Shown here: positions 12,095-61,820 of the stretch, piece by piece
Layout of the letters: each line of letters begins with the position of its first letter
How positions within the stretch are numbered: the stretch's first letter is position 1
NCBI RefSeq assembly: GCF_918797505.1
Contig: NC_092798.1
Span: 13,281,501 to 13,345,500, forward strand
Source of the DNA: Bemisia tabaci
Lineage: Eukaryota > Arthropoda > Insecta > Hemiptera > Aleyrodidae
Length of the DNA stretch: 64,000 nt
Direction: 5' to 3'
Translations under genes and position numbers: made by a program
Notes under the pieces: model-generated
Database searches by the model: none
Told to the model about the DNA's origin: nothing
The model's input: the letters and a program-made list of their open reading frames with translations, nothing else

Positions 12095-15000
12095 CCAATT
12101 TTGCCCAGAAAAGGACCAACAAGGACCCGAGGGAGGGAGAGGCCATATTCCTTCCCTCTCTTCCTTAAATTGCACCTCTCTTAGGCTTTTGAAACAGGTT
12201 AAATCCAGAAATTCTTAAACCATAAATAAAAATTATAACTTTTGTCGATAAATTTAAAGACCTAAATTTAAATTGATTAACATAAAAAATGTTGTACTTT
12301 ATCAAAACATTAATTAATCAACAAAGCATAGCTACATATCTTGCAAAATATATTAAAAAAAAATCTTAATCTAATTCTTATACTATAAATAAACCAACAA
12401 ATATTAACTATAGACCTATACCCCATTATTTTTTGGATATTACTGTTGTTTAACCCTATCAAACTACCAAAGATAGCAGAACACATTTCTTCATTCTAAC
12501 CAAGAAACCATCTCAGGAGTCTTCTTATATGAAATTCGAGTTAAATGTACGTAAAAAATTGATGAAAATTTTCATCAAGATTATATTATACTTAGGGGTC
12601 GATCATTTATGTAAATGGTTTTAAAACTCCGAGTAGCAGAGAAAAATACATACATACAATACATGAAACTAGAGATGCAGGTATACGTGTAAGCATATTT
12701 TGAAAATAATTCCAGAACAACCGAAGTTAACATAAAACTAGTAAAAATGATTAGGTACGCCTCTCCTGGCTTCGCATGCGTTGCGTTGCTCACGTAGCCC
12801 TTGAAATACTACTACAAATAAGACAAACGGCACCGAGACCAACACAACATGGAAATAAAGCGAGAGAAAGGACGCGCACTGATAACGGCGCAGAGATACA
12901 ACTATTCGTGCTTGATGGATGTCCGTATCACATCTGCAAAATTGAAGGCGCTATGGCAAGAGGCGTGAGCTCGCAATGCTCTACTCTACGCTGCCAATGA
13001 GGTGCCGCTCGGATTCGGGAGAACAGTTGAAAGAAGAGGCTCGAATACATCTAGTCCAGGCATATTAGATCAAAAATCGGCGATTAGAAAAAAAAAATTT
13101 ATATATAAGGTTTTATGTGCCCAAGTTGTTCATTGGGGTGCCAGGGACTCCCAGCAAAAAGTCCCCAAGAATCCCCTGTACGCTCGACCCCCCGCCCCCC
13201 CCCCCCCCAAAACCCCCAAAAAATCGACCTTTCCTCGGTTTTTCGTAAATATCTCAAAAATAATTGGTTTTAGCGAAAAATGAGTTATCTAGTGAATAAA
13301 AGTTCATAAAATTTCCAATAAAAATGACTTCTATGAATTTTTTTGTAAAACGACTTTGAACCCCTCAAAATGGCCGCCGAAAAAACGGGCATTTACGGAA
13401 ATTTCAGTTTTTCCCCGAAAATGCCCATTTTCTTTGAAACGGCTGCTCTCATGTAAAAGTTAATGGCGGATTCTGAAAGAGCGTTGAATTTCACATCAGA
13501 AATGATTAACATCGATCATTTTAGACTCACAGTAGATTTACGGATCAACTGTATTGACATTGGCTTTTTTATTTTCTTTCAGTTTGGTGTCTAATTATTT
13601 TTTAAGAATGTATTTGTAGACCTATTATCTAAAACTTCTATCGTGTGTACTAACCCTATACAACCAGACGGGGTATGTGTTTGTGGCAAGCCTCAGGTCA
13701 ATTTGACCCGGTTTGGGCATCTAAGGGCTAAGCATTCTGATGTATGTTTCTTCTTAAAAATTTCACACAGAACACGATTTGTGCAACTGAATTACTTAAA
13801 TTAACTCACAACCAATATTTTGAGGTTTCATTCAGCATAATTCGTCGCGAAAAATTCGAGTTTCCCGCTCACATGAAAAACCGGAGTCTCCTTGAATTGG
13901 ATCTTGCACTACAACGTTTTTGGTGAGTCACTTATTTTATCCCCGCCCTATGTTGTTTAACGTTTTAAAAACGTACAAAAGCTGAGCCGCAGCACCGATA
14001 TTGAGGTTGTTATACTTACATTCTGCAAAGACTGTCGCGGTAACGTTAAGAGGGCATGCAATCTGACGTACTCCAGTAGATTATGAGTATTACAGTATTT
14101 AAGAGCGCTCCTTTATTAGTGGTCCCTTTGGACTATGTTTTGCATCCCGGAGCTATAATTTCTGGCTCCGTTAAGAAACAACGTATACACCATTAGTTTC
14201 CCAATGCACTTAAGTGTTTCTACGGATGAGCCAGAAATTGTAGTTCCAAATCGCAAAATGAAGTCAATTTAAGTGAACTGCGATGAGAGAAAATCCTCTG
14301 AATTGATGAATTGAAGACCCACCCGTATTTGTTCCTCCTGTGAAAATCCAGGCTCCTGTTGTTTTGGCTGCTTTCAAGAGTCCCTTCCTCAGAATCTTCT
14401 TGAGTTTGGGCTGAAGCTCGAAATTAGCTTTGCCTCCTTGAACCGTGATCAAGAGCTTCGGTAGTTCCAGAGACCATTCTCGAGTGAAAAGCTGAAGAAT
14501 GAGCTCGGGCCGAGTGTCGTACGCCAAACGAACATACTGTAGGACAAAAAATAAAGGGTAATAAGTTATGACGTCATAAAAAGATAAGTCTTGGAATTAT
14601 TCTGCCGTAACGAGGAAAAACGCCGTATGAGCCTTCAGACATCGCCAACTTTCTTTCGATAAAAACATAATTTACTGGGAAAATTGTGAATATTTGTTTC
14701 CAAAATTTTCACACAATTTTGAACGAAATTTCATCTAAAATATCTCAAAATTTCGAGGGAAAATGTGCATGAATGTTGTCGAAAGTGCATGTTTTACCCA
14801 AGAAAATTTGGCAAATCTCAAATTTTCATACGGTGTTCTTCCTGCACGGCAGTATTCTGCTCCTTTATGATTACAGCTAAAAAACGCCGCACTAAGAAAC
14901 AAGTTTCGTAATCAATACAGCCTAACTTTGGATCACATTGAATGTCTAACTTTTTCAGTGGAAAAAAGGTTCGATGATTTCGACTCAGTTGAGCCGAATT

Positions 15001-18000: not shown

Positions 18001-21000
18001 TTGCTATAATTAGATAGTCAAAGTCATAATGAATCCATTGATGTATGTTACTCCGAGATAATATTCATATATGGACTCAATTTCAGACTTATTACCGGCC
18101 TACTTATTTTAGCTGGTTCAGTGTGTGTCTAGCCGACGAACGGAGCCGAGTCGGGACGGTCGGGAGTGGGGAGCGCTGAGCGCGAGTCTCTGCGTATGCG
18201 TCATCGCTAGTCGCCGCACACTAGTCTCCGGAGAACTGGACAAAACAGCCTCGAAAAGTGACTTCATCGGCGATCCAGTACTTTGCGACTCTATTGTACT
18301 CTATGGGCAGAACAGCAAAATACTCGAGTTATATTCGGATAACCTCAAATCAGGTTCTGACCAAGCTGTGAGTGAGGAGTTTGTCACTCGCAGACAAATA
18401 CAGATCTCCAGAGACAAGTAGAGACGCTTCACTAGCATCTCAGCGATTCTGGGAACTTTGACGATCGGAGTTTCAACAAATCGACAAGTGCCGAGGCGGG
18501 AATGATCGATTTTCGGTATTTCCCCATTTGAGGCTGTGGTAAAGAATCGATTTATTGAGGTGTCCGCTGCGAACACCCTGTTTATCGATCCTTTTCCATA
18601 GGTTTAAATTACAGATCGACCGATATATCGCAAAGCACGCCACGCCACTGATATCGACGACTTAGGTCGAGAAATGAGTATCTTCCACTGAAACTTAGCA
18701 AATTTCCGTTAATGTTTTATTTTTATCGGCAGCTTTTCTTTGAATATTTTCGAATGAAAGCAGAAAACTCACGGAGAATCAAGTGTACATGTAGGCATTT
18801 GGATTAGCTGCCTTAGTGGACCAAAAAAATAACACAATATTACATACACCAAGCCTGTTAAATACAAAATAGGTGAATGACGACTAAAACGGTGCAGCAA
18901 CTTATTGAACTCCTGAGAAGGTGAAAGTGCATAAACATCTAATTGAAGGCGACTTGCGTGTTCCGTTTTCTCAATTATTTTTCTCTCACTTTTTTACTCA
19001 ATGCCACCTTTGTGATTATAATTATTTGCTACTTTTCAGCTGTATCCGCTCATTTGACTGACAGAATGAAGAAATTTTTAGCGTTGCAATGAGCTTTAGT
19101 TTTTTATAATTTATCCGATGCTTTTGCCAGGATTCGTCGAAAGAAGAGTAAAAGCTCGTTGAATTTTCTGCGAGTCCCGACAAATGAAGCAAAGCATTGA
19201 AAAAGGGTTCCGAGAGATTTACAAAAATCTTCGAGTCAAATTTGGTTGGAGACGTCCCAATTTAAATGGACCGCATTTAGCAGAGAGGAACCAAGCCAAA
19301 TCAGCTACTGCCAAATTTCATTGGGAAATTAAATACTTTTACATAAAATGGTTGTGCGGCTTTTGTGCAAATTTCAGTGAATTTTCAGCACAGTGCAAGG
19401 CAAATTCCACAAAATTCCTAAAGGAATGCGCACAAACGTTCTCTCGTAATAAAGTAAATTGCCCCGTTACATCTGGCAATACCTGATGTGGCTTAGTTTC
19501 TTTCTGCTAAACGCGGTCCAAATTGCTGTCGCATCATTGTGTAGAGAACCATTTTTAATGATAGCATGGTAATTGATTTAAAAATCGAGCTACAAGTCAA
19601 AATAAACACGTGATATTTCAAACTACATGTAGATGAGAAATGAGATAAAACTAGCGAGAAACAAAGCAAACGTTCTTATAAGTTTTATATTATTTCTCAT
19701 CTACATGTAGTTTGAAATATTACTTGTTTGTTTGGCTTGTAGCTCGATTTTTTAATCAATGGACCACTAGACAAGGTACGAATTTAAGCAATCTGATACA
19801 TGTTTCTTAACCAGAATTTCACGTAAAAAACGATTCACACAACGAAAATTACGGAAACCAACTCCTAACGAAGATATTAACGTTTTTATTTCACATTGGT
19901 TACGAGGAATTTGAACTGCCCGCTCACAAGAAACTCAAAACTCTACGTGAGTCAAATCGCCCACTACAACGGTTTCAGCAAGCTTCTCAATCGAGCAATG
20001 TTCATTTCCCATCATGTGTTGTTCAAACTATTAGCAATTTGCTACAACTGAGCCAAAGCGTCAAGATTGAGGTTGCCAGATTTTTATAGCGCAGAGACTG
20101 TCATGATAACGTTTAGCGCGCGATGTGAATCACGTAGAGCATTGTGTTTTCATGAGCGGGTGGTCTGAATTCACGCATTAAGAATCATTAAATATCTTCG
20201 TAAGGAGTTAATTTCGGTAATTTTCGTTGTGTGCATCGTGTTTTACGTAAAATTTTGGTTAAGAAACATGTATCAGAATGCTGAAATTCGTACCTTATCT
20301 AGTGGTCCATTACAATGTTCTGCCCAAATTAGCCAGCCAAAGAGCTTGATGCAAAAAACGGCTTTTTTCGCCCCCCCTCTGGAAGTTCTTCAGACTTGTC
20401 TATTGATTACTCATACTTGAGCGCTTCTTTTCCCAAATTTTCAGACCCCCAAAAAATTTTGGGGGGGAGCTAGGGGGGGTGGAAGTCAAAACCTGTGAAC
20501 CTCGATATCTCTTGAACAAAGAAAGATATCGAGGTCCGGTTTGGACGAAAAATCGTCTAAAATTGCATACTTTAAGATTCTAAAGGTCGAAATCCCGATA
20601 TCACATTTTTAAGTCAACATATGTGCTTTTTTCCAGTTTTTAGGTCTAGAAAATTTCTTTTAAACGAAAAATTTACAAAGATCTCAATTTTTTATTTGAA
20701 CCAAAACCAGTTTTTTAAATTGTTCGTCTTTTTCCGCATCCAACGAGTGGTCCATTAAGCTGGGGAACCAAACGGTTCCGGAGTTATGATCGATTGAAGT
20801 TTTCGCTCAACGCGCGCCGACCGATTTTCGCGTGCAAAAAAGTCGGATTTGACTGTTATTAGATCAGATTGAATGTTCAAACTGAGCAAAATGCTTTATT
20901 AGGGACTCTTGAGGGTCGCTGAGTTCAGAAATTACCGATACTTCCAAAAAATTCACGTTTTTTAAATTGCAGCTTCGGACAGGACCACTGAGCGGCCGGT

Positions 21001-21877
21001 CGGCGCTCAGTGGGCCTCTAAAATAGCGCTGCGGAGCTGTAATTTTAAAAACGTAAATTATTTGGAAGTATCTGTAATTTCTGAACTCAGCGACCCTCAA
21101 GAGTCCCTAATAAAGCATTTTGCTCAGTTTGAACATTCAATCTGATCTAATAACAGTCAAATCCGACTTTTTTGCACGCGAAAATCGGTCGGCGCGCGTT
21201 GAGCGAAAACTTCAATCGATCATAACTCCGGAACCGTTTGGTTCCCCAGCTTAATGGACCACTCGTTGGATGCGGAAAAAGACGAACAATTTAAAAAACT
21301 GGTTTTGGTTCAAATAAAAAATTGAGATCTTTGTAAATTTTTCGTTTAAAAGAAATTTTCTAGACCTAAAAACTGGAAAAAAGCACATATGTTGACTTAA
21401 AAATGTGATATCGGGATTTCGACCTTTAGAATCTTAAAGTATGCAATTTTAGACGATTTTTCGTCCAAACCGGACCTCGATATCTTTCTTCGTTCAAGAG
21501 ATATCGAGGTTCACAGGTTTTGACTTCCACCCCCCCTAGCTCCCCCCCAAAATTTTTTGGGGGTCTGAAAATTTGGGAAAAGAAGCGCTCAAGTATGAGT
21601 AATCAATAGACAAAGTCTGAAGAACTTCCAGAGGGGGGGCGAAAAAAGCCGTTTTTGCATCAAGCTCTTTGGTAATAAAATGTATTTAAATGATAACATG
21701 AAATAAGGACTCACCTGGGCTTTGCTTGGGTGTGGGCCGCCTTGGAATTCAATGGTCCCATAGGCGTCGGTCGGGGACGCCATCGTGTGCTTGGAGGGGC
21801 TCCATATTTCGTCCCCCGCTTTCTCCGCTTGCGCAACCGAGGAGCTGTGATAGGCCAACGATTGCCCGCAGCAACAT
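226..21877 (-). CDS. Trpm: TRPM channel gene, N-terminal half (multi-exon, partial at both ends)
   Basis: Exons, in coding order: 21877-21715, 14536-14323, 11863-11704, 11044-10908, 9633-9477, 8502-8355, 7802-7613, 7010-6880, 6161-6034, 5086-4894, 4473-4284, 3893-3682, 3245-3066, 2968-2843 (uncertain) and 447-226. All but the uncertain one have AG acceptors, GT donors and phases that join without stops. They give roughly 810-850 residues. TRPM hallmarks seen in order are [130 protein letters not shown] and [19 protein letters not shown] proteins are tetrameric plasma-membrane cation channels; the single insect member is linked to divalent-metal homeostasis (family knowledge). The encoded part is cytosolic. 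The six-helix pore domain and coiled coil are left of the window; the start codon was not found. Confidence 0.95.
448..2842 (-). other. TRPM intron, 2.4 kb
   Basis: AT-rich intron with short A/T runs. No TIR element, no recognisable coding segment. A further small exon here cannot be excluded because the donor of the preceding exon is uncertain. Confidence 0.6.
2843..2968 (-). CDS. Trpm: Probable TRPM cassette exon, 42 codons, 3' end uncertain
   Basis: After the acceptor gattatag the phase-0 frame reads [20 protein letters not shown] and stays open. The next exon only tolerates phase 0, which allows donors after codon 9 (gtgaaa) or after codon 42 (gtagtt, used here). A stronger-looking gtgagc at codon 21 would break the frame. 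Charged helical composition fits the variable linker before S1. A 126-bp, phase 0-0 exon could be optional. Confidence 0.45.
3066..3245 (-). CDS. Trpm: TRPM exon: [30 protein letters not shown]
   Basis: Acceptor gttgttgtccag and donor gtatct, both phase 0 (60 codons). Encodes [20 protein letters not shown], then an acidic, low-complexity stretch ending TEADIE. This is the pre-membrane linker, variable in length between TRPMs. Confidence 0.93.
3682..3893 (-). CDS. Trpm: TRPM exon: [19 protein letters not shown]...[14 protein letters not shown]
   Basis: Acceptor caattttcag and donor gtaagc. Encodes [20 protein letters not shown] and [19 protein letters not shown], near-invariant in insect TRPM. 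The other two frames contain stops, which fixes the incoming phase. Ends in phase 0. Confidence 0.97.
4284..4473 (-). CDS. Trpm: TRPM exon: [28 protein letters not shown]
   Basis: Acceptor ctcttgcag. Encodes [20 protein letters not shown] and [19 protein letters not shown]. The 3' end was set at gtgatt because only a one-base carry avoids stops in the next exon, and the junction [15 protein letters not shown] then matches the TRPM pattern. The frame stays open past this donor to 4099, so retention or a downstream donor is possible but looks unlike TRPM. Confidence 0.9.
4894..5086 (-). CDS. Trpm: TRPM exon: variable linker ending [11 protein letters not shown]
   Basis: Acceptor gtgttttccag and donor gtaagt. 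The first base finishes an Arg codon; the exon reads [13 protein letters not shown], a basic and Ser-rich linker, and then [12 protein letters not shown]. The linker is the family's variable loop and the last motif is conserved. Ends in phase 0. Confidence 0.93.
6034..6161 (-). CDS. Trpm: TRPM exon: [19 protein letters not shown]
   Basis: Acceptor cgttttcag and donor gtatgt. Encodes [20 protein letters not shown] and [19 protein letters not shown], conserved across TRPM1/3/6/7-type proteins. Leaves in phase 2. Confidence 0.97.
6880..7010 (-). CDS. Trpm: TRPM exon: [25 protein letters not shown]
   Basis: Acceptor tttattccag and donor gtgagt. Encodes [20 protein letters not shown] and [15 protein letters not shown], a canonical TRPM helical-repeat sequence, ending in phase 0. 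Confidence 0.97.
7613..7802 (-). CDS. Trpm: TRPM exon: ITVFRISE...[15 protein letters not shown]
   Basis: Acceptor tcatttcag and donor gtaagc. It reads [10 protein letters not shown] and then [20 protein letters not shown], a diagnostic TRPM block in which each ankyrin-like helical repeat begins. It leaves in phase 1. Confidence 0.97.
8355..8502 (-). CDS. Trpm: TRPM exon: [18 protein letters not shown]
   Basis: Acceptor tttctgtag and donor gtaagt. The frame gives [20 protein letters not shown] and ends ECTRKKNL in phase 0. This is the helical region following the SLOG fold. Confidence 0.93.
8911..9454 (-). repeat. tRNA-derived SINE
   Basis: Read on the minus strand, it begins GCCTCAGTGATGTAG with an A-box-like TAGTAGTGGTCAAGG (complement of 9424-9438) and a B-box-like GGTCCTGGGTTAAATCC (complement of 9387-9403). 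It ends at 8911 in a short CTTA-type repeated tail. The 9-bp AAATTTTAG flanks both sides (8901-8909 and 9455-9463), a typical target-site duplication. It lies in the TRPM intron, in the same orientation as the gene. Confidence 0.8.
9477..9633 (-). CDS. Trpm: TRPM exon: [12 protein letters not shown] / [12 protein letters not shown]
   Basis: Acceptor gatttcag and donor gtaact. It encodes [20 protein letters not shown] and then [20 protein letters not shown], the end of the nucleotide-binding fold. The junction with the previous exon reads LHPCTHCSTPV, a slightly variable loop in the family. A tRNA-derived SINE lies about 14 bp beyond the donor hexamer. Confidence 0.96.
9634..10907 (-). other. 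TRPM intron
   Basis: Besides the short hairpin at 9713-9755 and a G run near 9941, this AT-rich intron holds nothing I can identify. Confidence 0.6.
9713..9755. repeat. Short hairpin (AGAAGGT.CC arms)
   Basis: GGCACCTTCTGATCTC and its near-complement GGAGATCAGAAGGTACC face each other across a short loop in a TRPM intron. Confidence 0.6.
10908..11044 (-). CDS. Trpm: TRPM exon: [16 protein letters not shown] segment
   Basis: Acceptor tttattccag and donor gtaagt. The exon reads [20 protein letters not shown] and then [19 protein letters not shown], among the best conserved TRPM blocks. It enters in phase 2 and leaves one base into a codon. Confidence 0.97.
11704..11863 (-). CDS. Trpm: TRPM exon: [11 protein letters not shown] segment
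   Basis: Acceptor aacttttcag and donor gtaaat. The split codon joins to give [12 protein letters not shown], followed by [20 protein letters not shown] and a loop ending YHSISSP. Phases in and out (1 and 2) match the neighbours. The intron before it carries the polyA/poly-C-rich and family-U sequences around 12.0-13.3 kb. Confidence 0.97.
12060..12090. repeat. A homopolymer, 31 bp
   Basis: Uninterrupted A run in a TRPM intron, preceded by a G run at 12004-12013. Confidence 0.95.
12872..13005 (+). repeat. Family U repeat, copy 1
   Basis: Shares about 120 bp with 52750-52880, including AACGGCGCAGAGATACAACT and TTGATGGATGTCCGT. Weaker relatives lie at 24546-24660 and 30848-30962. Nature unknown. 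Confidence 0.75.
13006..13730. other. Unclassified intronic stretch with C run and GGTCAATTTGACC palindrome
   Basis: Contains a C run at 13189-13208, a GGCCGCC-rich part and, near 13700, the palindrome GGTCAATTTGACC. It may be one unidentified element; no second copy was seen in the window. Confidence 0.4.
13733..14110 (+). repeat. Family C, divergent copy C6
   Basis: Follows the C consensus loosely: TCTGATGTATGTTTCTT, AGAACACGATT, a GCACTACAACG box and a truncated tail with TGACGTACT. Terminal repeats are lost. Confidence 0.55.
14323..14536 (-). CDS. Trpm: TRPM exon: start of SLOG-type fold
   Basis: Acceptor tttgtcctacag and donor gtgggt. It reads [20 protein letters not shown], then [18 protein letters not shown] and [11 protein letters not shown], all invariant TRPM segments. 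This is the first half of the Rossmann-like (SLOG/LSDAT) N-terminal domain that binds nucleotide in some vertebrate TRPMs. It ends one base into a Gly codon, which is completed by the next exon. Confidence 0.97.
14602..14854. repeat. Family A TIR element, copy A1
   Basis: Outer arms CTGCCGTAACGAGGAAAAAC and GTTCTTCCTGCACGGCAG face each other over about 250 bp, with the second-tier motif GGCAA / TTGCC inside. Non-coding, so a MITE-like element. It lies just upstream of the acceptor of the 14323-14536 exon, in the 7.2 kb intron. Confidence 0.8.
15185..15890. other. Unique intronic sequence
   Basis: No gene or repeat recognised. The short open frame 15616-15804 has no family features. Confidence 0.5.
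15890..16265. repeat. Purine-rich (GGGAGA)n tracts
   Basis: Two G/A-only blocks (about 15899-16034 and 16176-16265) of degenerate GGGAGAGGA units flank roughly 140 bp of normal sequence. Confidence 0.85.
16519..16735 (-). repeat. Family G repeat with TGACGTCA core, copy G1
   Basis: Matches copies at 47778-48096, 53739-53990 and 62764-63040 around the core GCCGCCTGATGACGTCAC, with a shared GGGAAAT, TATGACAAAATGA arm. Both flanks resemble F1's interior. Confidence 0.75.
17331..17588. repeat. Family A TIR element, copy A2
   Basis: CTGCACTGCTGAGCGAAGG at the left and CCTTTTCCCTTAGCACGGCAG at the right, with GTTGCCAAATTTC / TTTGGCAACG inner arms. Confidence 0.8.
17692..18098 (+). repeat. Diverged tandem duplication, unit about 203 bp
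   Basis: Units at 17692-17890 and 17895-18098 share CACGGCGGCTTA, ATAATGAATCCATTGATGTA and GATAATATTCATAT in the same order with many substitutions between them, so the duplication is old. Confidence 0.8.
18110..18470. other. CpG-rich unique segment inside the TRPM intron
   Basis: Locally CpG-dense sequence (18120-18260) unlike the AT-rich flanks. An open frame 18125-18421 (+) has no recognisable domain. It could be a regulatory segment or remnant; nothing more can be said. Confidence 0.3.
18486..18650. repeat. Family E (hAT-type) TIR element, copy E1
   Basis: Arms AAGTGCCGAGGCGGGAATG and CACGCCACGCCACTG, with inner ATCGAT, CTGTGGTAAAGAATCGAT and GATCCTTTTCCATAG boxes. The flanking 8 bp match at 7 of 8 positions (AAATCGAC / ATATCGAC). 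Confidence 0.85.
19267..19521. repeat. Family R TIR element, copy R1
   Basis: Ends TGGACCGCATTTAGCAGAGA and TTCTGCTAAACGCGGTCCA are inverted repeats. Second copy at 23326-23586. Confidence 0.8.
19572..19760. repeat. Hairpin element with about 65-bp arms
   Basis: ATTGATTTAAAAATCGAGCT with CTACATGTAGATGAGAAAT is mirrored at the right end by ATTTCTCATCTACATGTAG and AGCTCGATTTTTTAATCAAT. Its right end touches the start of C1. Confidence 0.85.
19760..20309. repeat. Family C TIR element, copy C1 (full length, 550 bp)
   Basis: Starts TGGACCACTAGACAAGGTAC and ends with the complement GTACCTTATCTAGTGGTCCA; the inverted arms continue inward over roughly 90 bp. Interior boxes (CCCGCTCACAAGAAACTC, GAGCCAAAGCGTCAAGATT) are shared with C2, C3 and C4. 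No coding capacity. Confidence 0.88.
20337..21672. repeat. Giant near-perfect palindrome, 1.34 kb
   Basis: Left arm from CCAAAGAGCTTGATGC to the centre is repeated as its complement up to GCATCAAGCTCTTTGG. Arms are about 660 bp and differ only at scattered positions (for example GAACAAAG versus GAACGAAG, and small indels near the centre). The centre at about 20999 is itself a palindrome, CCACTGAGCG / CGCTCAGTGG. Boxes mirrored in both arms include GATATCGAGGT, the G run GGGGGGGAGCTAGGGGGGG and TTCAATCGATCATAACTCC. No open frame of substance. Could be a foldback transposon or a recent inverted duplication; transcription through TRPM would give a long hairpin RNA. Confidence 0.95.
21715..21877 (-). 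CDS. Trpm: TRPM exon: CCCGQ and [11 protein letters not shown] motifs
   Basis: Acceptor tttgttgcag precedes the exon and donor gtgagt follows it. The first base completes a codon begun in an unseen upstream exon, and the frame then reads [10 protein letters not shown] and later [20 protein letters not shown]. This is the conserved N-terminal cysteine-rich start of the TRPM homology region (humans have FCG in place of CCCG). It ends in phase 0 after SKAQ. It sits only 42 bp upstream, in gene orientation, of a 1.34 kb palindrome. It is separated from the next exon by a 7.2 kb intron full of repeats. Confidence 0.95.
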
Positions 21878-22144: not shown

Positions 22145-22384
22145 CACTGGAAAAAAAAAAAGAAAAAAAACACATTGGATCTAGAGTCCAGACTCTTGAA
22201 AACATTGAAAAGAAAAATGACTCTTGATTCAAGCAGATTTAAGCTTAAATCAAAAGGAAATCCGCTCGAATTAAGAGGCTTGGCTCTTGATTTAAGCTTA
22301 AATCTGATTGAATCAAGAGTATTTTTTCTTGTCGATGTTTTTAAGAGTCTGGACTCTAGATCCAATGTGTTTTGTTTTCCAGTG
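22145..22384. repeat. Family B (CACTA-like) TIR element, copy B1
   Basis: Begins CACTGGAAAAAAAAAAAGAA and ends TTTTGTTTTCCAGTG, with long inverted arms carrying TTGGATCTAGAGTCCAGACT and its complement. Flanked by TA on both sides. 240 bp, nearly all hairpin. Confidence 0.9.
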
Positions 22385-24870: not shown

Positions 24871-24874
24871 ACAA

Positions 24875-25325
24875 TGGACCACTAGACAAGGTACGAATTT
24901 GAGCAATCTGATACATGTTTCTTAACCAGAATTTCACGTAGAACACGATTCGCACAACGAAAATGACTGAAACCAACTCCTAACGAAGATATTAACGTTT
25001 TTATTTCACATTGGTTACTAAGAATTTGAACTGCCCGCTCACAAGAAACTCAAAGCTCTACGTGAGTCGAATCGTGCACTACAACGGTTTCAGCAAGCTC
25101 CTCAATCGAGCAATGTTCATTTCCCACCATGTGCTGTTCACACTTTAAGCAATTTGCTATAGCTGAGCCAAAGCGTCTAAATTGAGGTTGCCAGATTTTT
25201 AAATCGCAGATACCCTCATGATAACGTTTAGCGCGCGATGTGAATCACGTAGAGCGTCGAGTTTTCATGAGCGGGTGGTTTGAATTTACGCATCAAGAAT
25301 CATTAAATATCTTCGTAAGGAGTTG
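24875..25325. repeat. Family C TIR element, copy C2 (right end lost)
   Basis: Complete left end TGGACCACTAGACAAGGTAC and the interior boxes of C1, but it stops at AATATCTTCGTAAGGAGTT without the right terminal repeat. Confidence 0.85.
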
Positions 25326-30845: not shown

Positions 30846-31137
30846 GATGCCGAGTTAGGTTAGCGCCTTGATGCAACTATTCGAGCTCAGTGGCTGTCCG
30901 TGTTGCATACCCACGAAATTGAAGGCAATCTTACCCGCGTAGGGTATTCCGTGCGCTTGTTGCTGGCCAATGTAAAAACTTAAAAATCGTATTTCTTCAT
31001 GAATAAGAAATGTTGACGTTTTCAGAGTAGTTTCATCTGTTTCGTCGTAAAATTTTCTGTAAAAATAATCCCTTAAAATTAAAATTGTGACGAGAGAAAG
31101 GTAAAATTTTACAATTTTTGTCACACATTTTTTACAA
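30846..31137 (+). repeat. Composite repeat: family U-like head plus N-like piece, copy 2
   Basis: Near-identical to 24546-24870 in order and sequence, also abutting a family C copy, but lacking about 40 bp after GCTTGTTGCTGG. Confidence 0.75.
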
Positions 31138-31530
31138 TGGACCACTAGACAAGAAACGAATTTAAGCATTCTGATACATGTTTCTCAACCAGAATTTCAG
31201 GTAAAACACGATTCAAGCAACAAAATGACTGAAACCAACTCCTAACGAAGATATCAACGTTTTTATTTCACATTGGTTATACGAGGAATTTGAGCTGCCC
31301 GCTCACAAGAAACTCAAAGCTCTACGTGAGTCGAATCGAGCACTACAACGGTTACAGCAAGCTTCTCAATCGAGCAATTTTCATTTCACACCATGTGTTG
31401 TTCACACTATAAGCAATTTGCTATTGCTGAGCCAAAGCGTCAAGATTGAGGTTGCCAGATTTTTAAATCGCAGATACTGTCATGAACGTTTAGCGCGCAA
31501 TGTGAATCATACGCAAAGCATTGAGTTTTA
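31138..31530. repeat. Family C TIR element, copy C4 (right end lost)
   Basis: TGGACCACTAGACAAGAAAC start, interior as C1, ends near GTTTAGCGCGCAATGTGAAT. Confidence 0.8.
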
Positions 31531-33643: not shown

Positions 33644-33911
33644 CACTGGAAAAAAAAACACATTGGATCTAGATCCAGACTCTTGAAACTTGACAGAAGA
33701 CTCTTGATCAATCGATTTTTGCTATCAAAGGATAGACAGAATGACTCTTGATTCAATCAGATTTTTGCTTAAATCAAAGGAAATCCACTTGAATTAAGAG
33801 GCTGGGTTCTTGATTTAAGCAAAAATCCGATTGAATCAAGAGTATTTTTTCTTGTCGATGTTTTTAAGAGTCTGGACTCTAGATCCGATGTGTTTCTTTT
33901 TTTTTCCAGTG
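33644..33911. repeat. Family B (CACTA-like) TIR element, copy B2, inside a LINE fragment
   Basis: CACTGGAAAAAAAAACACAT to TTCTTTTTTTTTCCAGTG, 268 bp. Flanked by AT on both sides (33642-33643, 33912-33913). Removing it with one AT rejoins the LINE frame. Confidence 0.9.
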
Positions 33912-35710: not shown

Positions 35711-35966
35711 TACTGCCGTGCTAACAAAGCACGCCGTATGAACCCTCAGGCGTTGCCAAATTTTCTTTGATAAAACACGAATTTTTTGGTAAACTTATGA
35801 ATGATTTTCATCCAATTCTTTAGATATTTATACAGCAATTTATCTTTAAGTTCCTGTAAATTTCAAGGAAAATTATTCACAACTTTCCTCAAAAATAAGC
35901 ATTTCATCGGAGGAAATTTGGCAACTCTCGAATGCCCATACGACGTTTTTCCTTAGTACGGTAGAA
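35711..35966. repeat. Family A TIR element, copy A5
   Basis: TACTGCCGTGCTAACAAAGC and ACGACGTTTTTCCTTAGTAC ends with GCGTTGCCAAATTTTC / GGAAATTTGGCAACTC arms. Confidence 0.85.
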
Positions 35967-38400: not shown

Positions 38401-38566
38401 CGGTGGTAAAGGAAAAAATTAGGACGCACGCTAAAGAAAATTTCTGATGCAGAGTGCAAAGATTAAGCTTTATGGAGTAGACTTTAGACATTTGATGCGC
38501 TTAACGTGATTTTTTGACAATTTAGTCTTTAACAGTTTCCTTCAGGGACGAAAGTTCCTCTCCCTA

Positions 38567-38824
38567 TACTGCTATGCTAAGGAAAAACGCCGTATGAACA
38601 TTTGAGAGTTGCCAAATTTCATCCAATGAAATATTTATTTTTGGGAGAGAGTTATGAATATTTTATCGTGAAATTTTCCGATATTTAAGATCCAATTACG
38701 AAGAAAATTCTCTAAAAAATTAAACGGAAAATATTCACGAGTGTTCCTGTAAATTCGCATTCAATCTAAAGAAATTTGGCAACTGATGAAGGTTCATACA
38801 GCGCTTTTCTTTAGCATGGCAGTA
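38567..38824. repeat. Family A TIR element, copy A6
   Basis: TACTGCTATGCTAAGGAAAA and TTTTCTTTAGCATGGCAGTA, flanked by TA on each side as expected for a TA-targeting element. Arms nearly intact. Confidence 0.88.
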
Positions 38825-42820: not shown

Positions 42821-43067
42821 TGTGCTAAGGAAAACCGCCGTATGAACATTTGAGAGTTGCCAAATTTATCCGCATAAAACGTGTATTTTTTATAAAATTT
42901 GTACATATTTTTTCGTGAAATTTTCGGATGTGTAAGATCAAAATACGAACAAAAATATCTGAAAAATTGGAAAATGAATATTCACAATTTTTCCAGTAAA
43001 TTCGGTTTTTAGTGGAGATAATCTGGCAACGTCTAAAGGTTCATACGGCGTTCTTCCTTAGCACGGA
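42821..43067. repeat. Family A TIR element, copy A7
   Basis: TGTGCTAAGGAAAACCGCCG and CGGCGTTCTTCCTTAGCACG ends. Confidence 0.85.
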
Positions 43068-46053: not shown

Positions 46054-46460
46054 CGCACGTACTCCAGCTGCCGAAAATCGAAAATTCAGGCGCAAAGGTG
46101 AGTCCAGCCGCGGGTGACAGAAGGACGAAATAAGCCTCGTTAGAGCCTGGATCCACCCTGAGTTGCGGGCGGAGACATAATTTCGGAGGGACTTACCGCC
46201 GGCGAGAAAATTTAACTCGGAGCAAACGTTAATCGTGAGAATTAGTGTAGGGCGAGAGCTTACGACGCGTGCGGGGGAGAGGGGGAAAAGCGGCGATGTC
46301 TGGGAGGTGGGATTTACGAGAACTCTATTACAGAGCGAGGTTAGGCGGAGTGAGGTGGTAATAGTGTCGCGGCGACTCCTATCGTGTATGCAACACTCAC
46401 GACCGCCGCAAAGTGGAGCGCGCTCCTCAGAATGGTCGGACGAAAAACATTTTACAAAAA

Positions 46461-47012
46461 TGGACCACTAGATAAGGTACGAATTTCAGTATTCTGATAC
46501 ATGTTTCTTAACCAAAATTTTACGTAAAACACGATGCACACAACGAAAATTACCGAAATTAACTCCTTACGAAGATGTTTAATGATTCTTAATGCGTGAA
46601 TTCAAACCACCCGCTCATGAAAACTCAATGCTCTACGTGATTCACATCGCGCGCTAAACGTTATCATGACAGTCTCTGCGATATAAAAATCTGGCAACCT
46701 TAATCTTGACGCTTTGGCTCAGTTATAGCAAATTGCTAATAGTTTGAACAACACATGATGGGAAATGAACATTGTTCGATTGAGAAGCTTGCTGAAACCG
46801 TTGTAGTGGGCGATTTGACTCACGTATAGAGCTTTGAGTTTCTTGTGAGCGGGCAGTTCAAATTCCTCGTAACCAATGTGAAATAAAAACGTTAATATCT
46901 TCGTTAGGAGTTGGTTTCCGTAATTTTCGTTGTGTGAATCGTTTTCTACGTGAAATTCTGGTTAAAAAACGTGTATCAGATCGCTTAAATTCGTACCTTG
47001 TCTAGTGGTCCA
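46461..47012. repeat. Family C TIR element, copy C3 (full length, 552 bp)
   Basis: TGGACCACTAGATAAGGTAC and GTACCTTGTCTAGTGGTCCA ends. The interior is in the opposite orientation to C1. Confidence 0.9.
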
Positions 47013-47267
47013 TTGCAAATTTTGATGTTAATTTTCTCGCACTGGAGACTTCAAGTGGTGCTTCTCGTCGAAAATTTTACTAGACAATCGATGGAACCAC
47101 TTTTTATAACTTCCCAGATTCTTATTTACAAAAGCACGTGTGGACCGAGTTCATCAGAAAGGAACCAACCCACATTTTGGAAGAGAACGAATGTATGCAT
47201 TTTATTGGTTGGTGTTACTGGGAAACTACCTAGTATAAATCCTCTTAAGATTTTGTGTAATAGATCT

Positions 47268-47492
47268 GCACTGGGGAAAAAAACACATTGGATCGAGAGT
47301 CCAGACTCTTGAAAACATTGACAAGAAAAAGGACTCTTGATTCAATCAGATTTGAGCTTAAATCAAAAGAAAATTCGCTTAAATTAAGAGGCTTGCTTCT
47401 TGATTTAAGCTAGATTCTGATTGAATCATACTTTTTCTTGTCGATGTTTTTAAGAGTCTGGACTCTAGATCCAATGTGGTTTTTTTCCAGTG
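47268..47492. repeat. Family B (CACTA-like) TIR element, copy B3
   Basis: CACTGGGGAAAAAAACACAT to GTGGTTTTTTTCCAGTG; hairpin arms as in B1, 225 bp. Flanking dinucleotides TG/TA differ at one base. Confidence 0.88.
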
Positions 47493-50162: not shown

Positions 50163-50704
50163 GCCCGTGACATTTGTTACGTTGTCAGACAAGGTACGGT
50201 GAAGGTCCCGGAGTCAATATTCGCGCGGGAAACGTTGTGAATTTTCGGCCGGGGAGCTTTCGTCGGGTATTCCCTTGCCTAACCGCGGCTAATGACTGCG
50301 CCTGCAACATCCAACCACGCCTGCCGCCTTTTCAGCGCGTGGCGGCCGCGGCGTGGCCCATTAATTTCCGCTTAAATGCCTTCCCCCGAGCCCAGCCCGG
50401 TCCGGTCAGGCCTCTCAGGTGCCGCCAGACCTTTTTTAGGCCGCTGCATCTATAATGAAGCCGTAGGGCTCCATATCGACCAACCTCTCGGGAAGAACCG
50501 CGGATTTATGCTGAGTTTTCGTTGGAGTTACGCTTTTCTTGCTGAGCCAAGTTGTTCGTGGCCAACGGCGGGTGAATTTCGCCGTCGAGTCGGGACCCCG
50601 GGAACGTTCGCACCGCGCTACCTTCGCTCATTGATGTTAACGCTTCCTGATGAAAAACCCATTTTACCTGCATTGCCTTGTAATTTTTCTCGCGGATTGG
50701 AATG

Positions 50705-51203
50705 GAAATGTTGCATGTGTGAGGAATTTGCGATTTGACTGTTGATTCTTATGTAAAAGTTCGCGAGAAACACGATGGTGCCACTGGTTTTCTCTGAAAC
50801 CAACTCCCAAGCTCAAAAAAAGCTCTCAAGTTGAGGCCAAAATGGAGGGGATATCCCATCCTACCCTGAGAGTCCACATCTACATCAAAACAAACTCTCC
50901 ATAAGATAGGGAGCAATACATTAGCAGGGTTGCCGTGTTTTCAGTTTTGGAGTCCCCAGATAAAGTGGCAACCTTACTAATGTATTTGCTCCCTATCTTT
51001 GCATGGAGAGTTTGTTTTGACGTAGAGGTGGACTCTCAGGGTAGGGTGGGATATTCCCTCCATTTTGGCCTCAACTTGAGAGCTTTCTTTGAGCTTGGGA
51101 GTTGATTTCAGAGAAAACCAGTGGCACCATCGTGTTTCTCGCGAACTTTTACATAAGAATCAATGTTCAAATAGCAAATCCCTCACACATGCAACATCTT
51201 CAT
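50705..51203. repeat. Family H TIR element, copy H1 (long arms)
   Basis: ATGTTGCATGTGTGAGG faces CCTCACACATGCAACAT, and the arms continue for over 200 bp each (TTATGTAAAAGTTCGCGAGA, AGCTCTCAAGTTGAGGCCAA and complements) around a short centre. Confidence 0.92.
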
Positions 51204-51485
51204 TTTGTATGATACTGTGCAACACCTCTGACGTGAAATAGTTGCTTGAGGCGCCGTGGCACGCTGCGCCGCCGCGAAACTCGCATTGGCGCCTACAAAC
51301 CTAACAGGGATACTTCACGCATTGCGCAATGCGTCAAGTATCCCTGTTAGGTTTGTAGGTGCCGATGCGAGTTTTGCTTCGGCATGCTCGTCACGCGGCG
51401 CGGCGCCGCCGCTCCGCTTTGTGCTGGGCTCTAATATTTAAACTCGCAGAGTCAGCGTTTTTCAACTCATAATTATGAAATTGAT
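51204..51485 (+). repeat. Family D fragment D3 with variant hairpin
   Basis: GATACTGTGCAACACCTCTG to GCAGAGTCAGCGTTTTTCAA matches D1 39950-40195. Its hairpin at 51287-51362 has CAGGGATAC in place of GTGGATAC on one arm and the complementary change on the other. Confidence 0.85.
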
Positions 51486-55380: not shown

Positions 55381-55835
55381 GTCCGAAGGCACATACGGTG
55401 TTTTTCCGGAGCCCGGCAGAAAAGCGTTCTGGATACGCGGAAACACGTGTTTGAACACGCCTGCCTTTGACAGGGACCAACACAGCATGAAACCAACCCA
55501 ATCCCATTCATAATAACGGCGGCCCGCCAACTGCGAGATGTGCGTCGGCGTTTGATGTTGTTTGGATTCTGACAGAGCCAAACTTTGAGGGTTGATGAGC
55601 GTTGTCGAATCGCTCCGATTCGGATCGACGCGCAGAGAAAAATCGAGAAAATACGCGGCGGTTTGGCGGCGGCCTTTGATTGATAACGAATAATGGACGC
55701 AAATGCCGCGCCGAGCAAAGGCTCGTGGCAACACAATCACAATTCGCAATTAACCTACAACTCAGTCAGACGGAACGCGACCCTTCCAGCCGATTGGGGT
55801 TGCCGAGTCTAATCTGAAAAATTCGGACCTTTTAT

Positions 55836-56086
55836 TCTGCCGTGCTACGGAAAAACGCCGTATGAACCTTCAGGCGTTGCCAAATTTCTTTTAATAAATA
55901 ACGAATTTTCGGGAATTTGTAATTATTTTACTTCTGATTTTTCAGATATTTTTGTTCGCAATTTCACCTGAAGTTCTTGAAAATATTTCGAGGAGAAATA
56001 TTCAGAGCTTTCCTGAAAAATAGACATTTTATCGAAGGAAATTTGGCAACTATCGAATGTTCATAAGGCGTTTTTCCTTAGCATAA
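55836..56086. repeat. Family A TIR element, copy A8
   Basis: CTGCCGTGCTACGGAAAAAC and AAGGCGTTTTTCCTTAGCA ends; close to the consensus. Confidence 0.87.
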
Positions 56087-58401: not shown

Positions 58402-58648
58402 ACACTGTCGATCTTAGTAAATACGCCGTATGAGCCTTCAGGCGTTACCGAATTTCTTTCGATAAAATACGCATTATTGGGAAAATTTGGAAAAATTTTC
58501 TTCAACATTTTCGAAAAATCTTGTACATAATTTAATATAAAATATCTGAAAATTTCAAGGAGAAACATGCTTAACCAACCTCAAAAATACATGTTTTATC
58601 CGGGGAAGTTTGACGAATATTTACGGCGTTTTCCCTTAGCACGGCGGT
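58402..58648. repeat. Family A TIR element, copy A9
   Basis: AAATACGCCGTATGAGCCTT and ACGGCGTTTTCCCTTAGCAC; the left outer end is degraded. Confidence 0.8.
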
Positions 58649-61454: not shown

Positions 61455-61585
61455 GACAGATTTTCGCGACAAGTGTGTAACAAAAAGCGCCCTGCTCCCT
61501 TGTTATGATCTGTCTGTTCAAAAGACCACGGAGGGAAAAAAAGGGGGGAACTTTAAAACTGAAAGTCCCATTAAGTGTATGAATC

Positions 61586-61820
61586 GCTGGAAAAAAACAC
61601 ATGGAATCATAGTCCAGACTCTTAAAAACATCGACAAGGAAACATTACTATTGATTCAATCGAATCTAGCTTGAATCAAGAACCAAGCCTTTAATTTAAG
61701 CGGATTTCGTTTTGATTCAAGCAAAAATCTGATTGAATCAAGAGTATTTTTTCTAGTCAATGTTTTCGAGAGTCTGGACTCTAGATCCAATGTGTTTTTC
61801 TTTTTTTTTTTTTTCCAGTG
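61586..61820. repeat. Family B (CACTA-like) TIR element, copy B4
   Basis: GCTGGAAAAAAACACATGGA to TTTTTTCCAGTG; the first bases of the left end are altered. Confidence 0.85.

Follow-up and report, generated by a model that had tools for sequence, protein, structure and literature searches.

Spy transposons, which belong to the PHIS superfamily, show a strong preference for AAATTT without producing any target-site duplication, and their natural terminal repeats reach 467 bp in cgSpy from Colletes gigas, about 60% of the insertions of which in human cells were at AAWTT, according to the parts of the published accounts dealing with their targets and ends (PMC4482050, PMC11304231). ISL2EU, from the same superfamily, is described in those parts as having the AT-rich target A|AT|T (PMC4482050, PMC11304231). 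Galileo, a Drosophila foldback element of the P superfamily, is described, in the parts of the account devoted to its repeats, as having long terminal repeats, copies made up of hardly anything more than these and a likeness of 98–100% between the repeats of one copy, for which conversion has been proposed (PMC3573991). No published report of a foldback or palindromic Spy element was found in the open-licence literature.

The Bemisia tabaci palindrome described here resembles Spy, as far as these parts of the accounts go, in its insertion at AAATTT, the absence of target-site duplication and the long terminal repeats; it differs in that it carries no transposase and that its terminal repeats form nearly the whole element, and the comparison concerns target and ends rather than transposase kinship. 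With Galileo, within the same limits, it shares long terminal repeats, little other content and near-identical repeats within a copy, whereas the superfamilies differ and the within-copy likeness was tested here against shuffling. The target of ISL2EU, as published, is likewise AT-rich, but ISL2EU leaves an AT duplication, and none was found in 38 copies of the foldback element. The P superfamily, Galileo included, duplicates several bases of its target, and no such duplication was found in these 38 copies either. The element is very probably a non-autonomous foldback DNA transposon which inserts in the manner of Spy (PHIS superfamily) and the arms of which are homogenised within each copy.

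Structure, copies and target site of the element

The palindrome occupies positions 20342..21667 of the window, i.e., the whole stretch of 64,000 nucleotides analyzed, and is 1326 bp long (GAGCTTGATGC...GCATCAAGCTC), its ends being fixed by 38 copies and by empty sites at three other loci. The two arms, or terminal inverted repeats, are each 636 bp long and about 99% alike; the left one (20342..20977, + strand) and the right one (21032..21667, − strand) were delimited by self-complementarity and copy comparison, and they flank a 54-nt centre (20978..21031) found to be asymmetric by inverted-repeat analysis, with arm-specific bases close to it. The inner match (20396-20977 / 21032-21613) covers 582 nt at 99% complementarity and extends outward at 100% (20354-20397 / 21613-21656) as far as 20337 / 21672; comparison of the copies showed that the outer CC/GG of the interval 20337-21672, taken earlier as the palindrome, belong to the flank and not to the element. 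The earlier note had described a near-perfect palindrome of about 1.34 kb adjoining a TRPM donor, and this palindrome is real and recurs at many loci, whereas the centre that it called palindromic is not so. Since the inverted repeats account for 636 + 636 of the 1326 bp of a dispersed mobile element, the element is of the foldback type, and as it carries no transposase, the longest stop-to-stop frame lying fully within it having 80 codons, it is read as non-autonomous.

All the comparisons between copies were made within one assembly. A genome search with the left half yielded 939 first-look candidates, 40 of which were scored; the element was present in 40 of these 40 loci, 39 having both arms and one (L039) being shortened in one arm. 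The left-arm matches at the scored loci were 98–100% alike and the mirror-arm matches 96–99%, and the copies were 98–99% alike to one another. In the whole genome, a 31-base end pattern with at most two mismatches was present at 662 places (319 forward and 343 reverse), as against 0 for the reversed control. Among the 100 exact end matches listed, all of which are on contig C1, 56 form 28 facing pairs 1315–1355 bp in length, 14 form seven pairs of other lengths (0.66–4.7 kb), and the remaining 30 are without a partner in the list.

The flanks were analyzed in 38 of the 40 loci, L039 (short in one arm) and L036 (changed end) being excluded. The ends of these copies are exact, and their flanks are unrelated from the boundary on. 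The bases adjoining the element are AAA or TTT at 75 of the 76 ends, a stricter rule than that published for cgSpy in human cells (about 60% at AAWTT, in the part of the account concerned). No target-site duplication was detected in the 38 copies at lengths of 2–10 and offsets of −4 to +4: at offset 0, the left and right flanks matched at 0.20–0.27, as compared with 0.23–0.26 between copies (lengths 2–10), and the highest value at any length and offset (−4 to +4) was 0.33, versus 0.26 between copies. The two bases on each side of the element were complementary slightly more often within a copy (0.36) than between copies (0.27).

Empty sites were sought by comparing the joined flanks of the copies with all the fetched sequences, and read-through alignments were obtained for four copies. 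For L024, three other loci have AAATTT exactly at the junction. For L042, ten distinct places were aligned, seven of which have AAATTT, one AAGTTT, one AACTTT and one neither. For L022, AAATTT is present in L103, in L004 and in the window, a second alignment with L004 being less clear, and the single, gapped alignment obtained for L017 lacks AAATTT. At the first three of these loci, a paralogous empty site AAATTT corresponds to a filled site AAA-element-TTT, which means that both the AAA and the TTT belong to the host and that no base was duplicated or lost; in the window copy, these triplets are at 20339..20341 and 21668..21670, respectively. No empty site for the window copy itself was found among the sequences compared. 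A family of repeats, each about 245 bp long, is present in the window at 14613-14860, 35715-35956, 38566-38815, 42821-43066, 55833-56082 and 58413-58640, and many of its copies contain the AAATTT site struck by the foldback element in L042.

In the earlier note, a genome search for the arms was proposed and a foldback transposon was left unproven for want of a target duplication. The search showed the element to be dispersed; the duplication is indeed absent, because insertion goes into AAA^TTT, and the doubt cast on the foldback element does not stand, since this absence is the rule in the family.

The putative enzyme responsible for movement

A Spy-like transposase encoded elsewhere would cut at the terminal repeats and join the element into AAATTT, and the element itself would be the remnant of one in which the gene between two long terminal repeats had been lost, bringing these repeats back to back. 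The membership of Spy proposed here is based on the insertion signature (target and ends), from which we infer the moving enzyme. It is improbable that the mover belongs to another group of enzymes which likewise act without duplicating the target, so that the resemblance to Spy would be convergent: both the exact AAATTT target and the absence of duplication agree with what has been published on Spy in the parts of the accounts cited above, which speaks against this explanation, whereas the assignment from target and ends, together with the fact that no enzyme was found in the five matches read, is in its favor.

These matches were five of the 103 obtained in the genome in a profile search for DDE_Tnp_4, and no Spy transposase with the ends of the element was present in them (around the gene in L103 and after the domain in L104–L107); in particular, no arm occurs in the 540 bp following the domain in L104–L107. 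L104 and L107 run into what we take to be a SWIM-like motif. L103, which was considered as a possible partner, has a DDE open reading frame and another which on our reading is YqaJ-like, but does not have these ends; it is presumably an ISL2EU-like element of the same genome. Inspection by eye showed no C1 DDE_Tnp_4 match within 5 kb of any of the 100 exact C1 end matches listed. A search with variants of the end pattern yielded one facing pair at C2:74605520-74607368 (1849 bp) and another at C1:87878744-87879807 (1064 bp), and by eye no DDE_Tnp_4 match lies within 5 kb of either. Two candidate source elements were rejected: 855 bp of the approximately 1975-bp centre of L083 are another high-copy repeat, the longest open reading frame encoding 139 aa, and L084 has 3.36 kb within one arm, with a longest frame of 128 aa. 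L012 and L098 appear to be truncated ends.

Some other repeats were observed during these searches. Copies of the motif AAAGAGCTTGATGCAAAAATACCTAAT, all in one orientation, number three on contig C102 and seven on contig C128, where the spacing is 1.5–2.2 kb; this is a tandem array, the unit of which contains the end-like motif. A recently multiplied DDE_Tnp_4 family (e.g., C4:48074009-48074509 and C3:13876777-13877283) has frames reaching about 680 aa and many equal-scoring copies, followed by a motif labelled SWIM-like by us.

The copy located in the TRPM gene

The exon located transcript-upstream of the element (21715..21877, − strand, the end at 21877 being provisional) was identified by its protein match and by its donor CAG|GTGAG, the GT of which is at 21714-21713 (−); the next exon is at 14321..14536 (−), with approximate ends taken from the reading frame. 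When joined, the two exons run on without a gap along TRPM3, the best match (E 1.7e-46), followed by TRPM7 and TRPM1, which bears out the TRPM assignment made previously. The element corresponds to positions 48-1373 of the 7178-bp intron. On the − strand, which is that of TRPM, the RNA from 20337-21672 is predicted to fold into a single long hairpin (−1187.4 kcal/mol, raw value). A transcript crossing the palindrome would fold into a very long RNA hairpin, and the element in TRPM would be an intronic passenger placing this hairpin in the pre-mRNA.

Other inverted repeats are present nearby. An element at 19758-20311, ending 30 bp to the left of the palindrome, has 121-nt arms 312 nt apart, and its relatives are located near 24873-25324, 31136-31254 and 46459-47014 and at L103:2195-2749. 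A near-perfect short hairpin element (22163-22377), with arms of 104 nt separated by 7 nt, is located 286 bp beyond the TRPM exon, which is therefore flanked by two hairpin-forming repeats; relatives of this element are located near 33740-33900, 47267-47492 and 61584-61799. A long inverted repeat with 202-nt arms, 94% alike and 100 nt apart, is present at 50701-51204.

It might be argued from the start of the element at intron position 48 and from its predicted folding at −1187 kcal/mol that it has a selected role at TRPM, where the RNA hairpin would govern splicing, undergo ADAR editing or yield small RNAs. This we judge to be very unlikely, in view of the several hundred similar copies with unrelated flanks and of the fact that no Rfam family matched the window between 18000 and 24000. 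Nothing was found which links the element specifically to TRPM, the copies being genome-wide and their flanks unrelated. The sequence comparisons suggest instead that the palindrome is one of several hundred copies of a defective transposon which happens to be present in TRPM, where an incidental effect without any selected role is possible.

Likeness of the arms within each copy

In the 38 copies, left and right arms differ by 0.62% within a copy, whereas the differences between copies amount to 1.24% for left arms, 1.71% for right arms and 1.50% for left versus right arms. Forty variants are shared by two arms, and no more, out of the 76, and in 36 cases these are the left and right arms of a single copy; single-arm variants number 74. 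The sister arm carries the same variant in the case of 220 of the 363 variant-bearing arms, as against 29.7 on average, and never more than 64, in 500 random re-pairings. Compared with the majority arm, the 51 intact copies show 383 and 376 differences on their arms, of which 215 are mirrored, and the eight most diverged of these copies show 125 and 121, with 84 mirrored. In L079, there are 22 and 18 differences, and 18 are mirrored. Since the variants are at mirror sites, the only routes are copying between the arms or correction of a paired hairpin.

These data show at the sequence level that the arms have been homogenised within each copy, and the view previously expressed that the near identity is recent or kept by conversion is borne out by the arm comparison and the shuffling. 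The likeness of the copies to one another (98–99%) is what would be expected if the arms were alike merely because the insertions are young, without any homogenisation, but the fact that the arms are closer within than between copies and that copy-private variants are present at mirror sites on both arms, as in L079, makes this explanation highly improbable. Read-through palindromes do arise as artefacts of library preparation, but the probability of an assembly artefact is negligible, given that 38 loci with two differing flanks apiece have identical ends and an identical centre, and that empty sites were found.

Homogenisation would take place via hairpin or cruciform pairing and mismatch correction, or via gene conversion from arm to arm, during or after transposition. 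Mirrored variants common to several copies may derive from conversion in a shared ancestor. The one-arm variants include 20 G-to-A and eight C-to-T changes, a weak difference (p 0.036).

Nine odd copies, hand-picked for their odd length or missing partner, were also compared (differences on the left and right arms and mirrored differences, respectively). Some copies in which the centre is enlarged or damaged lack homogenisation: L083, with its centre of about 1975 bp (12, 7 and 1), L085, with a 254-bp insert (7, 8 and 2), and L087 (7, 2 and 1). L084, which has a 3.36-kb insert, shows mirroring but few changes (2, 3 and 2). The values were 5, 5 and 4 in L091, 6, 8 and 5 in L090, 10, 10 and 7 in L086, 34, 34 and 20 in L099, and 20, 22 and 19 in L097, which has a short centre. 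The contrast between L083 and L085 on the one hand and the short-centre L097 and L079 on the other hand is suggestive only, in these few hand-picked copies, of a dependence of homogenisation on arm spacing. We regard as possible but doubtful the further idea that in a foldback Spy lineage the arms are reset to identity via a hairpin intermediate whenever the element moves, in-place conversion continuing as long as the arms are close. If this were true, the divergence between arms would date insertions, as the divergence between LTRs does in retrotransposons.

Non-autonomous foldback transposons are a known kind of element; this one has an uncommon mode of insertion and gives a clear signal that its arms are homogenised. 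What was an odd palindrome adjacent to a gene becomes a well-delimited family of mobile elements with a rare mode of insertion, and its hundreds of palindromes of the same length are replicates with which the likeness of arms can be studied outside sex chromosomes. A copy reads almost the same on either strand, so that any transcript running across it, whatever its direction, would contain a hairpin of 1.3 kb, and such transcripts would be a plausible source of double-stranded RNA.
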